A stretch of 35,950 nt of DNA. Origin: Candidatus Arcticimaribacter sp. GTDB taxonomy: Bacteria > Bacteroidota > Bacteroidia > Flavobacteriales > Flavobacteriaceae. This document shows positions 14,373-35,497 of the stretch, one piece after another. The notes beneath the pieces were generated by a model. It was not told the origin of the DNA. It ran no database searches and saw only the letters and a program-made list of their open reading frames with translations. The first letter of the stretch is position 1; each line of letters begins with the position of its first letter. The translations under genes were made by a program, and so were the position numbers. The stretch spans positions 1 to 35,950 of the forward strand of contig PXYQ01000005.1 in assembly GCA_003023645.1 (NCBI GenBank). Reading direction: 5' to 3'.

Positions 14373-15284
14373 ATGGCAAAAAAGAAGGACCTAGAACGGG
14401 GTAAGCTAAGTTGGTATCTACGACTGATAACCCTTGGTGATCGTTTCTCTTATCAAGACTTCTTTGATCGATTTAAAAAAGGCTTTGTAGAATTCCTAAT
14501 TGTATTTTTTGGGGTACTAGTTTCTTTTTCTGTAGAACAGCAGGGAGAAAATTTTGGTGACCGTGAATCTAATATTGACAACCTTACAGGTCTTCGTGAT
14601 GAATTGGTTGATATGCACGAATATACTTTAGAATATATTGCTCAAAACGAATGGGTAACGGAAATGTACAACGAGCAGTATTTACGTTGGGATCAAGACC
14701 ATGATAGTGTTTTCATTAATTATGAGTCAGACGAAGATTTTCATTATGCTCCAATGACTTTCTATACCAATCGAGATGCCTTCAATCCGCCTCGAGTTGT
14801 ATACGATGCCATTAAATTGGATGGAACCTTTCGTTTTTTAGGTTCGGATATTGGTCGCCTGATTAACAATAACTACGACGGAACAGATTTGAAGTATTTA
14901 ATCACAAATACAGATAAAGAAGAAAAAGGTTTTATTGACGACTTTTCAAACCGTTTAGGGCATCAATGGGTATTTGATTTGAAAGAAATTGATGTTGAGG
15001 ATACCGATTTTTGGGTTAACAATCGAAAATATATTCAAAGTGACTACTTCATCAAGTATAACTTGTTTAAACGAATCGAGCTATGGCGTCAGATCAGAGA
15101 ACAGCTTGATGATTATGATGTAAACTTACAAGAAAACATCAAAGTGTTAAACAAGGTTATAGCTGAAAAAGAAACTGAAATTGTAATTGTTTGGTGGTGG
15201 TTTAGTCGACCAAGCTGGCTACAAGCTTCCCAGAAATTAGAGCCGGAGGAACCCCAGGACCCGGAACCGTCAGTTGACCAGTAA
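14373..15284 (+). CDS. Hypothetical single-TM protein resembling DUF6090-type proteins of Bacteroidetes
   Basis: 303 aa; short cytoplasmic N-terminus, TM segment FVEFLIVFFGVLVSFSVEQ, then a hydrophilic helical region. Last 83 bp are antisense to crtI. Confidence 0.65.
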   Translation: MAKKKDLERGKLSWYLRLITLGDRFSYQDFFDRFKKGFVEFLIVFFGVLVSFSVEQQGENFGDRESNIDNLTGLRDELVDMHEYTLEYIAQNEWVTEMYNEQYLRWDQDHDSVFINYESDEDFHYAPMTFYTNRDAFNPPRVVYDAIKLDGTFRFLGSDIGRLINNNYDGTDLKYLITNTDKEEKGFIDDFSNRLGHQWVFDLKEIDVEDTDFWVNNRKYIQSDYFIKYNLFKRIELWRQIREQLDDYDVNLQENIKVLNKVIAEKETEIVIVWWWFSRPSWLQASQKLEPEEPQDPEPSVDQ

Positions 15285-16653
15285 AGAATAAGTTTTCTAC
15301 CTTTTTACTTTTTAATTTAGGGCGTAAAAATGCTGTCTGTAGTAGGGTGTTCGCCATGCCGTACGCATTTCCTTTGTAAGAGTTATATTCACTAACAAAG
15401 TCATTCACACAAAAAGATTCCTTGAATAAAATGGCATCTTTGATCGACTGTTTTGTAAGGTGCTCTAGTCGCTCGATAACCATGTTAAAATATTTGTCTC
15501 TCATTTCTTCGGTATCTTCAATTCCAGGACCAATCGGAATTAAAAGAAAACAAGCCTCTTTTCCTTCAGGAGCCATAGAACTATCTGTTATAGAGGGGAA
15601 ATTGCCATAGAACAGAGGATCTTTTGGCCACTCAGGTGTATCGTATATACTTCGAGCATGTGCATCAAAATCTACATCAAAAAATAAGGTGTGATGCGAA
15701 ACGTTTTTAACTTTTTTATCCAGGCCAATGAAAAACAAGAGGGATGAAGGAGCAAACACTTTTTTGTCCCAATAAGCATCTGTATAACCTCTTTCTTTTG
15801 GTTTTAGCAGGGATTCAGAATGATTATAATCTGCACCACTAACAACAACGTCAGCATCAATTTGAACTCCATTAGCGATTACACCCGTTGCTTTTCCATT
15901 TTCAACACAAATGGTTTCAACATTCTGACTTGTAGTGAATTTTACTCCAAGTTCTTTAGCCATTTTGACCATTCCTTCAACGACACTGTACATTCCTTTT
16001 TCGGGATGCCAAGTACCTAAACCAAAGTCTGCAAAATTCATGAAATTATAAAAGGCAGGCGTATTGCTTGGTTTTGCACCAAGGAAGAGAACTGGAAATT
16101 GCAAAATTTGCGCAAGGCGTTCGTTTTTAAACTCTTTAGTGACTTCTTTTTTTATGGTACTCAAGAAGTATCCTACTTTTTTAACAGTTGCAGGTGTAAC
16201 CAACTCCAAAGCCGAAATCCCTGGTCGATAGACCAAATCTTTGATGGCAATATTGTAATTGTCTTCGGCTTTTTTGATGAATTTTTTAAGCTTAACAGCA
16301 CTTCCTGTTTCTTCAGCTTCAAATGCTGCATAAATTTTTTCTAGGGTATCTCCAATTTTAATTGATTCCATTTGATCAAAATACACTTCATATCCTGGAT
16401 CTAACTTTTCAAGTGTATAATAGTCGCTAACCTTTCGATCAAAGTCGCCAAAGAATTTTTCAAAAACATCGGGCATCCAATACCAAGATGGCCCAATGTC
16501 GAAGGTGAACCCATCTTTTTTAAATTGACGCGCACGGCCACCTGGGGTAGAATTTTTCTCTAATATTTGAACAGTGTGTCCAGCTTTTGCTAGGTAGCAA
16601 GCTGCGGACATTGAAGAAAAACCAGACCCAATAATGATGATATTCTTTTTCAT
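15202..16653 (-). CDS. crtI: Phytoene desaturase (CrtI family)
   Basis: 483 aa; IIIGSGFSSMSAACYLAKAGHTVQILEKNSTPGGRARQF FAD motif; C-terminal LFFTGQLTVPGPGVPPALISGKLVASLV. Confidence 0.92.
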   Translation of the reverse strand: MKKNIIIIGSGFSSMSAACYLAKAGHTVQILEKNSTPGGRARQFKKDGFTFDIGPSWYWMPDVFEKFFGDFDRKVSDYYTLEKLDPGYEVYFDQMESIKIGDTLEKIYAAFEAEETGSAVKLKKFIKKAEDNYNIAIKDLVYRPGISALELVTPATVKKVGYFLSTIKKEVTKEFKNERLAQILQFPVLFLGAKPSNTPAFYNFMNFADFGLGTWHPEKGMYSVVEGMVKMAKELGVKFTTSQNVETICVENGKATGVIANGVQIDADVVVSGADYNHSESLLKPKERGYTDAYWDKKVFAPSSLLFFIGLDKKVKNVSHHTLFFDVDFDAHARSIYDTPEWPKDPLFYGNFPSITDSSMAPEGKEACFLLIPIGPGIEDTEEMRDKYFNMVIERLEHLTKQSIKDAILFKESFCVNDFVSEYNSYKGNAYGMANTLLQTAFLRPKLKSKKVENLFFTGQLTVPGPGVPPALISGKLVASLVD

Positions 16654-16711
16654 AAAAGTAAAGATGTGCTAATAGATTGAGGCCAAGCCTTGTGAATTAT
16701 ATGCGTTGAGT

Positions 16712-17425
16712 CTAATTGTTTTCTTTGTTTCGATTTTCTTTTTCAATTCGAATTTCTTCAACAAAAGAAGCACTGATTACGCCAGTTGGGATAGCAACTA
16801 CTCCAATTCCAACAAGTGAAATTAATGTAGCAAACAGTTTTCCACCAACAGTTACTGGGTATACATCCCCGTAACCAACAGTCGCTAGCGACACTGTAGC
16901 CCACCAGATTGATTCCGTTATGCTTGAGAATTTTTCAGGTTGTGCTTCATTCTCTAAATAATAAATAGCAGATGCTGAAAAAAGTATGGTTAAAACCGAA
17001 AGGAATAAGGTGAATATAAGTTCGGCCTTTACTCCGGCTAAAGATTTTGTGAAGACACGCAACGAGTTACTGTTTCTTCCAAGTTTAAAAATACGAGTCA
17101 ATCTAAATAATCTTAAAATCCGTAGGAATCGACCATCTAATTTCATGAATTGATTCAAGTAAAACGGGAGTATAGAAATCAAATCAATGAGTCCGAATAA
17201 ACTAAAAACATAGTTTGCAACACCTCTTTTACCTTCAGTAACAAAGGCATGGTAAACACGATAGATGTATTCTCCCGAAAAAATCAGTATAGAAATAAAT
17301 TCAAAAGCATGAAAATAAGTGCCATAGGCAACTCTTAAACTCAAATGAGATTCGAGCACCATAGCAAAAACATTTACGATAATTAATACGTAAATGAATC
17401 GGTCAAATAAATTGAATGATTTCAA
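16712..17425 (-). CDS. Voltage-gated-type potassium/ion channel (6 TM, TTG start)
   Basis: 237 aa; S4-like RFLRILRLFRLTRIFKLGRNS, selectivity filter SLATVGYGDVYPVT. First codon is TTG (17425-17423), overlapping the TGA of an upstream small ORF. Confidence 0.87.
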   Translation of the reverse strand: MKSFNLFDRFIYVLIIVNVFAMVLESHLSLRVAYGTYFHAFEFISILIFSGEYIYRVYHAFVTEGKRGVANYVFSLFGLIDLISILPFYLNQFMKLDGRFLRILRLFRLTRIFKLGRNSNSLRVFTKSLAGVKAELIFTLFLSVLTILFSASAIYYLENEAQPEKFSSITESIWWATVSLATVGYGDVYPVTVGGKLFATLISLVGIGVVAIPTGVISASFVEEIRIEKENRNKENN

Positions 17426-17511
17426 TTATTCTTCGATAAATCTCTTATGATTGCAATTACTACAAGTATGGAAGTAACAATAACAACATTTGCAACAAAA
17501 GTAGTGGTCAT
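17422..17511 (-). CDS. Putative 29-aa single-TM membrane peptide, overlapping the channel gene start
   Basis: ATG..TGA reads MTTTFVANVVIVTSILVVIAIIRDLSKNN; TGA overlaps the TTG start of the channel as TTGA. Not in the supplied ORF track (too short). Confidence 0.45.
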   Translation of the reverse strand: MTTTFVANVVIVTSILVVIAIIRDLSKNN

Positions 17512-17658
17512 AGATATAGCTTTTTATTACTTCAAAATTACTAAAATCTTTTGACACGAGATTCATGTTTTATTAGAAGAAATATTATAGTCCAAATCAC
17601 TTCGCTTTTTTTCGCTTTTGCTAACTTCTCTTCCTATCTTTATTGTGTTATATTATTT

Positions 17659-18333
17659 ATGAAAAACTTTACAACGCTGACACTATTCCATTTTAATTCT
17701 AATAGATTTTGGGCTTTTAAGCAAATGGGAATAGCCCCTTTTACGTTCCATAAAATTGAAGGCTTGGTGTTTTCTAAACTTATGGGTACTGGAGCTGGAG
17801 CTGGGTTTAGCTTGTTTCCAGATTTCTCAACCTATGCTTTTTTAGGCGTATGGGAAAGTGAGGCAAGTGCACAAGCTTTTTTTGAGTCCAGTAACTTCAT
17901 TAAAGAATATAAAAAACGAACCAATAAAATAAGAACCTTAAGTCTACGTCCTCTGCATAGTAGCGGAAAGTGGAGCGGTGAAAATCCCTTCGGGCCGAAT
18001 GTTGCAAAGGAAGATATGCCCCAAGGCAAGATTGCTATTATAACGCGCGCTACTTTACGTTGGAACCGTTTACTGTCTTTTTGGGCAGCAGTCCCAAAAG
18101 CCAGCAAAGCAATAGAAGCTGCTGAAGGAGTTCATTTTTATAAAGGCATAGGCGAGTGGCCTTTTATTCAACAAGCAACAATTAGCATTTGGGAGAACTT
18201 AGATGCGGTACATACTTTTGCTTATAAAGGTAAAGCCCATTCTGAAATTGTAAAAGACACCCGAAAGAAGAAATGGTATAAAGAAGACATGTTTTCTCGG
18301 TTTGAACTTTTAAATGATGTGACTTATGAGTAA
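17659..18333 (+). CDS. crtA: Spheroidene monooxygenase (CrtA)-family carotenoid ketolase
   Basis: MKNFTTLTLFHFNSNRFWAFKQMGIAPFTFHKIEGLVFSKLMGTGAGAGFSLFPDFSTYAFLGVW...; CrtA-like GTGAGxGFxxxPD and Trp-rich layout; next to crtD. Upstream in-frame extension from 17551 (TTG) judged unlikely. Confidence 0.8.
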   Translation: MKNFTTLTLFHFNSNRFWAFKQMGIAPFTFHKIEGLVFSKLMGTGAGAGFSLFPDFSTYAFLGVWESEASAQAFFESSNFIKEYKKRTNKIRTLSLRPLHSSGKWSGENPFGPNVAKEDMPQGKIAIITRATLRWNRLLSFWAAVPKASKAIEAAEGVHFYKGIGEWPFIQQATISIWENLDAVHTFAYKGKAHSEIVKDTRKKKWYKEDMFSRFELLNDVTYE

Positions 18334-19798
18334 AAAAGTAATCATTGTGGGTTCGGGAATTGCGGGTATTGCGACTAGTATTCGTTTGGCCAAAAAAGGA
18401 TATGCTGTTACCGTTTTTGAAGCGAACGCTTATCCAGGCGGAAAACTAAGTGCCTTCAACCTAGGTGCCTATCGTTTTGATGCTGGGCCTTCTTTATTTA
18501 CGATGCCTCAATTTGTGGAAGAGCTTTTTGAATTGTGTGAAGAAGATCCTAAACACTATTTTGAGTATGATAAAAAAGAAGTTGGCTGTAATTATTTTTG
18601 GGAAGATGGCACACGTCTAAAAGCCTACGACGATTCCGAACGGTTTTTATCTGAAGTTGAACAGGTGTTAGGAGTGCCTACAAAAACGTTAAAAGATTAT
18701 TTGACAAAGGCAAAAAAGAAATATGATTTAACCGAATCCATTTTTTTAAAACGTTCTTTACACCAACTCAAATCTTTTTTAAATCCAGAAACCCTTAAAG
18801 CCATTCTAAATGTTCGCACTTTAGAAATTGGTAAAAGCTTGCATCAAGTAAACGAGGAACAACTTCAAGAACCGCATTTAGTGCAATTCTATGATCGTTT
18901 CGCTACCTATAATGGTTCTAATCCCTATCAAACTCCTGGGATCATGACTTTAGTGCAGCACTTAGAAGAACATTACGGAACCTTTGTTCCCAAGAAAGGG
19001 ATGGAGTCTATAACGACCTCTTTGTTTGAGCTTGCTAAGCGTCAAGGAGTAATTTTTCATTTTAATGAGAAAGTAGAAGAAATTGTCATTGAAAAGCGCA
19101 AAGTTGTGGGTGTGAAAACCGAAAAGATGTTTTATCCTGCCGATCAGGTATGTTCCAATATGGATGTATACCCAACATATAAATATTTATTACCTCAAGT
19201 TGTTGCTCCAACAAAAACCTTGGAACAAGAACGCTCTAGTTCTGCCGTTATTTTTTATTTAGGAATTTCCAGAACATTCAAAGAATTGGACTTACACAAC
19301 ATCTTTTTCTCAAAGGATTATAAGGAAGAGTTTAAAGCAATTTTTGAAGACCAGACCGTGTCTGACGATCCAACGGTTTATGTAAACATAACATCCAAAG
19401 ACATTGCAGCTGATGCTCCAACGGGTTGTGAAAATTGGTTTGTGATGATCAATACACCTGCAGATAAAGGGCAAGATTGGGATGTAATTACACATTCGAT
19501 TAGGGAGCGTTTTATCAAGAAAATCAACTTGATTTTAGACGTTAATTTGGAAGATTATATTGTTGAAGAAGATTTTTTAACACCTCCACTGATTCAACAA
19601 AAAACACAATCTCATCAGGGAGCTTTGTATGGTTCTTCTAGTAACGACCGTATGGCAGCATTTTTACGGCACCCTAATTTTTCACAACAAATTAAAAATC
19701 TATATTTTTGCGGTGGAAGCGTACATCCTGGAGGAGGGATTCCGCTGTGTTTATTATCTGCAAAAATTGTTTCAGACCAAATACCCGAGCTACTGTAA
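18326..19798 (+). CDS. crtD: Carotenoid desaturase, CrtI/CrtD family (likely CrtD, 3,4-desaturase)
   Basis: 490 aa; VGSGIAGIATSIRLAKKGYAVTVFEANAYPGGKLSAF; C-terminal LYFCGGSVHPGGGIPLCLLSAKIVSD. Overlaps crtA by 8 bp and cruF by 1 bp (TAATG). Confidence 0.85.
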   Translation: MSKKVIIVGSGIAGIATSIRLAKKGYAVTVFEANAYPGGKLSAFNLGAYRFDAGPSLFTMPQFVEELFELCEEDPKHYFEYDKKEVGCNYFWEDGTRLKAYDDSERFLSEVEQVLGVPTKTLKDYLTKAKKKYDLTESIFLKRSLHQLKSFLNPETLKAILNVRTLEIGKSLHQVNEEQLQEPHLVQFYDRFATYNGSNPYQTPGIMTLVQHLEEHYGTFVPKKGMESITTSLFELAKRQGVIFHFNEKVEEIVIEKRKVVGVKTEKMFYPADQVCSNMDVYPTYKYLLPQVVAPTKTLEQERSSSAVIFYLGISRTFKELDLHNIFFSKDYKEEFKAIFEDQTVSDDPTVYVNITSKDIAADAPTGCENWFVMINTPADKGQDWDVITHSIRERFIKKINLILDVNLEDYIVEEDFLTPPLIQQKTQSHQGALYGSSSNDRMAAFLRHPNFSQQIKNLYFCGGSVHPGGGIPLCLLSAKIVSDQIPELL

Positions 19799-35423: not shown

Positions 35424-35497
35424 GGTCTGGTAGTTCAGCTGGTTAGAATACCTGCCTGTCACGCAGGGGGTCGCGGGTTCGAGTCCCGTCCAGACCG
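35424..35497 (+). tRNA. tRNA-Asp(GTC)
   Basis: Acceptor ggtctgg/ccagacc + discriminator g; anticodon stem-loop cctgcct-GTC-acgcagg; T arm gcggg-ttcgagt-cccgt; CCA not encoded. Confidence 0.95.

Follow-up and report, generated by a model that had tools for sequence, protein, structure and literature searches.

The DNA analysed here, called the window below, is a whole stretch of 35,950 nt from a genome of Candidatus Arcticimaribacter, a genus belonging to the NS5 marine group (PMC9122927); close relatives of the window in named collections carry the same label. The features with which this analysis is concerned are the following:

15202-16653, minus strand: crtI, phytoene desaturase of the bifunctional CrtI/CrtD type (NF058655, 2.5e-219, above the curated cut-off), the third gene of a peptide-channel-crtI unit.
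16712-17425, minus strand: predicted six-helix K+ channel of the voltage-gated type with a TTG start (Ion_trans; TVGYGD filter; S4 arginines at every third residue).
17422-17425, minus strand: TTGA, in which the TTG start of the channel overlaps the TGA stop of the peptide; the overlap is identical in L077 and L084.
17422-17511, minus strand: 29-aa single-span membrane microprotein MTTTFVANVVIVTSILVVIAIIRDLSKNN, recognized by its conservation, purifying selection and a conserved helix face.
17533-17540, minus strand: TAATTTTG, which fits the -7 promoter consensus of Bacteroidota (TAnnTTTG) and begins 29 nt upstream of the peptide start codon.
17659-18333, plus strand: divergent crtA-like gene, spheroidene-monooxygenase-like (NF045923, 2.6e-58, below the curated cut-off).
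18326-19798, plus strand: second carotenoid desaturase-type gene of the divergent operon (Amino_oxidase family match).

A preliminary description, made from the letters alone, had noticed an ion-channel gene preceded by an unlisted ORF for a peptide of 29 aa, and both observations were right. The channel ORF (237 aa, 17425-16712 on the minus strand) matches the Pfam family Ion_trans (PF00520) at 2.3e-33, and the nearest solved chains are those of Kv4.2 (aligned at 1.3e-30), Kv1 and KCNQ; the gene is predicted to encode a Kv-type K+ channel. An in-frame TAA lies directly 5' of its TTG codon and no further start codon is present ahead of S1 in the same frame, which leaves TTG as the sole start giving a whole S1 helix. 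The peptide MTTTFVANVVIVTSILVVIAIIRDLSKNN is the translation of a 29-codon ORF (ATG...TGA) at 17511-17422 on the minus strand, and the overlap of its TGA with the channel TTG, at 17425-17422, is as it had been described.

The third gene, crtI, begins 58 bases past the end of the channel gene; the preliminary description treated the peptide and the channel alone and left this next gene of the unit unlinked. In Bacteroidota the -7 box has the consensus TAnnTTTG. Of 31 loci, 24 have an exact match to it within the 70 nt that precede the peptide ATG, usually at a distance of 21-34 nt, and the remaining ones have the near-matches TAATTTTA and TATTTTTA. This consensus match just upstream suggests a transcript that probably begins with the peptide gene and continues into the Kv-type K+ channel and crtI. 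The intergenic promoter region of the unit is shared with the divergent crtA-like gene, for which the ORF list gives a TTG start at 17551, while comparison with orthologues points to the ATG at 17659 as the likely one. At 15202-17511 the window has a K+ channel of the voltage-gated type inside a carotenoid unit, where most other Flavobacteriaceae examined place a MerR-type regulator before crtI.

Comparison with relatives revealed about 30 loci in which the 29-aa peptide is conserved. In 14 of the 15 closest loci, the same small peptide stands just 5' of the channel orthologue, with 72-95% identity among the channels; the exception is Candidatus A. forsetii (L003), which has no peptide upstream. 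Among 13 phylogenetically separate pairs of peptide sequences, differences at the three codon positions number 43, 24 and 117, and 112 of them are silent against 72 replacements, although without selection about three quarters would be expected to be replacements (binomial p ~1e-24). The pN/pS ratio in the same 13 independent pairs is 0.22 in the peptide frame versus 1.4 in the two other frames, while pooled values are 0.24 in copies coupled to crtI and 0.16-0.30 in stand-alone copies. Judged by this pattern, the 29-codon ORF is a real gene kept under purifying selection across related ocean bacteria. An ORF arisen by chance upstream of the channel might be suspected from the size of the peptide, which is below the usual ORF cut-off, and from the lack of any meaningful Pfam or NCBIfam match among its 39 family members, but this explanation is left with next to no probability by the frame-specific codon-position bias and the pN/pS ratio across dozens of genomes, and we rejected it on the strength of the substitution pattern. 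We also rejected the possibility that the peptide is a frameshifted N-terminus of the channel, as the upstream channel frame contains stops and no conserved coding sequence.

The family members are 27-31 aa long and have one membrane span, in agreement with the single hydrophobic helix described earlier. In the family profile, which comprises 28 positions and 39 members, V6 and D24 are invariant and V10 is nearly so. Conservation along the helix is strongest at a periodicity of 100 degrees per residue (permutation p 0.003-0.005), pointing to a single packing face with V6, V10, V17, I21 and D24. The C-terminus is rich in Arg and Lys, and the greater positive charge of the C-terminal end compared with the N-terminal end suggests a topology with the N-terminus outside and the C-terminus in the cytoplasm. 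Membership in a known family was rejected, as Pfam and NCBIfam gave no meaningful match and their weak hits are typical of any hydrophobic helix; a search of the PDB with the profile of the peptide family gave no convincing relative, and none of the papers listed on bacterial K+-channel and KdpF microproteins, on crt operons, on proteorhodopsin together with K+ channels, or on translational coupling deals with the peptide.

In 28 loci where the two genes are linked, the channel starts between -14 and +7 nt relative to the peptide stop (for L106 the channel start was taken from a separate inspection of the locus). TTG or GTG serves as the start in 16 of these 28 coupled channels versus one of six unlinked ones, a difference with a Fisher p of 0.09 that is uncorrected for common ancestry. 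The tight junctions and the frequent weak starts support translational coupling of the peptide and the channel, which we regard as likely. The coupling layout proposed in the preliminary description thus stood as far as the tight junction is concerned, but not in its exact form: TTGA is found only in the window and in the close relatives L077 and L084, while the other linked loci exhibit ATGA, TAATG, abutting codons, short gaps or a 14-nt overlap. Moreover, some orthologous channels have an ATG start and no small ORF beside them, in G001 (Ca. A. forsetii), G343, G155, G345 and G204, a finding that the preliminary description had itself named among those that would refute its proposal. The same geometry could be explained if the peptide were a leader acting only in cis, whose translation opens the start of the channel (or of crtI) and whose sequence is otherwise free. 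The tight junctions and the excess of TTG and GTG starts in coupled channels would fit such a leader; on the other hand, the amino acid sequence is conserved, including an Asp present in every member and one face of the helix, and copies with no gene within coupling range are conserved as well (G001, G013 and genus g138). These conserved unlinked copies make a pure cis leader improbable.

The peptide was detected in 20 of 346 genomes of the family sample, of which the sole one without a close channel orthologue belongs to genus g189. It is present in 19 of 20 channel-bearing genomes versus one of 326 others. Channels were counted in a sample of 400 genomes, of which the 346 are taken to be part, with G370 and G374 left out, and the co-occurrence is partly built in, since the final profile included unlinked copies of the peptide. 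The first profile, made from linked copies only, had already recovered three unlinked peptides in channel-bearing genomes. In five of the 19 genomes with both genes, the two are unlinked. The one channel-bearing genome with no detectable peptide, G204, is 88% complete. In a nested clade comprising G086, G360, G211 and G379, searches covering those genomes found neither a close channel nor a convincing peptide, and a tree of crtI, which is not a species tree, groups the genera with channel and peptide together, with this clade inside. The co-occurrence therefore largely reflects shared ancestry, with a few informative rearrangements. Outside the family sample, the only peptide match in an order-wide sample of 298 genomes was the window itself, and a narrow DNA pattern covering the start of the peptide found nothing in viral contigs.

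The rearranged loci bear most directly on the role of the peptide. In G001 (Ca. A. forsetii), G013 and G012, all members of the genus, the peptide gene is the immediate 5' neighbour of crtI; no channel gene intervenes, and the spacers appear too long for the two to be coupled. The channels of G001 and G013 are located elsewhere and adjoin the same antiporter-type gene, which suggests that one move of the channel probably explains both. The loci L078, L090, L092, L167 and L168 record the channel outside the crt locus and beside an antiporter-type gene in two species. G001 has no peptide at its channel locus, whereas G013 has two peptides, of which the channel-linked copy is relaxed (pN/pS 0.42-0.52, GTG start) and the crtI-linked copy is conserved; on G013 C2 the peptide accompanies the channel even after the exit of the latter from the crt locus. 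In genus g189, whose genomes are about 1.2 Mb in size, the peptide is found in 18 of 25 genomes, and in almost every one of these 18 its gene extends 8 nt into crtI; the two most complete peptide-bearing genomes of this genus lack a close channel and have only distant paralogous channels (~33-40% identity). The persistence of the peptide without an adjacent channel implies that it would act in trans and be more than a coupling leader.

Some of these loci would also fit a role on the carotenoid side, in which the peptide anchors, stabilizes or organizes either the membrane-associated enzyme CrtI or the membrane that bears the carotenoids; the channel gene would then be an insertion between those of the peptide and CrtI. 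This role would account for the peptide having stayed before crtI where the channel left, for the tighter constraint on the crtI-linked copy in G013, and for the overlap with crtI in g189, where pN/pS is 0.24. CrtI, however, is present in almost the whole family (351 of 400 genomes) while the peptide occurs in about 5%, the position upstream of crtI is held at most other loci examined by the MerR-type regulator instead, and the g138 peptides are away from crtI; all in all, we consider this role possible but rather unlikely.

In the two g138 genomes examined, the channel is located in the crt cluster without the peptide. The peptide genes of this genus stand alone with promoter-like boxes in several unrelated contexts, namely with an ArsR regulator, with GNAT/DedA-like genes and beside a secreted-protein gene, and are under purifying selection; the stand-alone relatives recorded at L115, L192 and L219-L244 are 26-32 aa long. 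Such genes would be expected if the peptide were a membrane or stress microprotein of general function, lacking a dedicated partner in the operon, and if its position at the head of the crt unit reflected shared regulation by light or oxidative stress. The family is, however, almost absent outside the channel-bearing clade, a distribution narrow for a general function, and we hold this explanation to be unlikely.

The reading that we favour, tentatively and at somewhat less than an even chance, is that of an accessory microprotein resembling KdpF or MgtU, with the Kv-type channel as its likeliest partner; in broader terms, this very small peptide probably assists a membrane protein, which may be the channel. 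An accessory role is suggested by selection in linked, crtI-coupled and stand-alone copies alike and by the conserved helix face. The channel is suggested as the partner by the tight junctions in 28 loci, by the peptide that followed it in G013 C2, by the co-occurrence in 19 of 20 genomes and by the nested clade that has neither, while g189 with its distant paralogues only, the relaxed channel-linked copy of G013, the genomes G001 and G204 and the shared ancestry argue against it. The earlier proposal of an accessory subunit or regulator of the channel is retained as to the conserved single-span peptide and its tight linkage to the channel, but not as to channel specificity, given the copies before crtI without a channel and the stand-alone genes; a subunit of this channel is one candidate role. 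According to the favoured reading, the peptide would be made first and the ribosomes would pass to the weak, overlapping TTG of the channel, as the geometry suggests; the peptide would then act in trans, its conserved face packing against a larger membrane protein, most likely the Kv-type channel, and the packing would stabilize that protein or tune its activity, as KdpF or MgtU do.

Several known microproteins offer parallels. KdpF is a single-span subunit of about 29 aa in the KdpFABC K+ pump, encoded by the first gene of its operon, and is thus similar to the peptide in length, in having one helix and in being encoded ahead of a K+-handling membrane protein. Here, however, the partner would be a Kv-type channel rather than KdpA or KdpB, and some copies of the peptide are not next to the channel gene. 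Assignment to the KdpF family was rejected, as none of the 39 members gave a meaningful match to a Pfam or NCBIfam model, and the neighbours of the peptide are the Kv-type channel and crtI, not kdpABC. KCNE proteins, single-span N-out/C-in accessories of the KCNQ Kv channels, resemble the peptide in its predicted topology, and the channel of the window matches KCNQ chains, but they are eukaryotic, exceed 100 aa and have no homology to the peptide, so the likeness is only an analogy. AcrZ, a single helix that packs on a large membrane protein, is not known to be operon-coupled in the manner of the peptide-channel pair; it has 49 aa and acts on an RND pump. KdpF itself stabilizes the KdpFABC complex (PMC8385062), AcrZ packs around the membrane domain of its transporter, MgtU protects MgtB and MgtR promotes transporter degradation (PMC10710835). 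MgtU, MgtR and MgtS, which act on Mg2+ transporters, are 28-31 aa long and bind their membrane transporter in trans to stabilize, degrade or inhibit it; the partner is different, no sequence similarity is claimed, and a comparable role of the peptide is proposed by analogy. The resemblance to KdpF, MgtU and MgtR is one of layout and size, not of homology.

In a more specific form of this proposal, which we regard as doubtful, the peptide family would be dedicated to a voltage-gated K+ channel as its accessory subunit, within an operon related to light, and channel activity would be matched to light-driven pumping. To our knowledge, no bacterial microprotein family of this kind has been described. 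A proteorhodopsin family member was found in 25 of 30 genomes checked, that of the window included, and one may speculate that a K+ channel beside carotenoid genes could relieve the membrane voltage arising from light-driven pumping. Should the peptide bind the channel, a Kv-type channel would have a natural regulator of minimal size, and the peptide would offer a way into the question of why these bacteria keep a voltage-gated K+ channel inside their carotenoid operon. In either case, the peptide represents an unannotated microprotein family, small enough to be discarded by gene callers, that is under selection in surface-ocean flavobacteria (the NS5 group and its relatives), and the rearranged genomes, in which the channel moved and the peptide was kept, or the channel was lost and the peptide became coupled to crtI, are ready-made natural experiments.

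Two minor observations may be added. In genus g83, a 75-aa membrane ORF follows the unlinked peptide and is common to both genomes (L191, 1676-1903; L193, 1664-1891). At the Rfam gathering score the window has a single match, a tRNA gene at 35424-35497 on the plus strand (RF00005).
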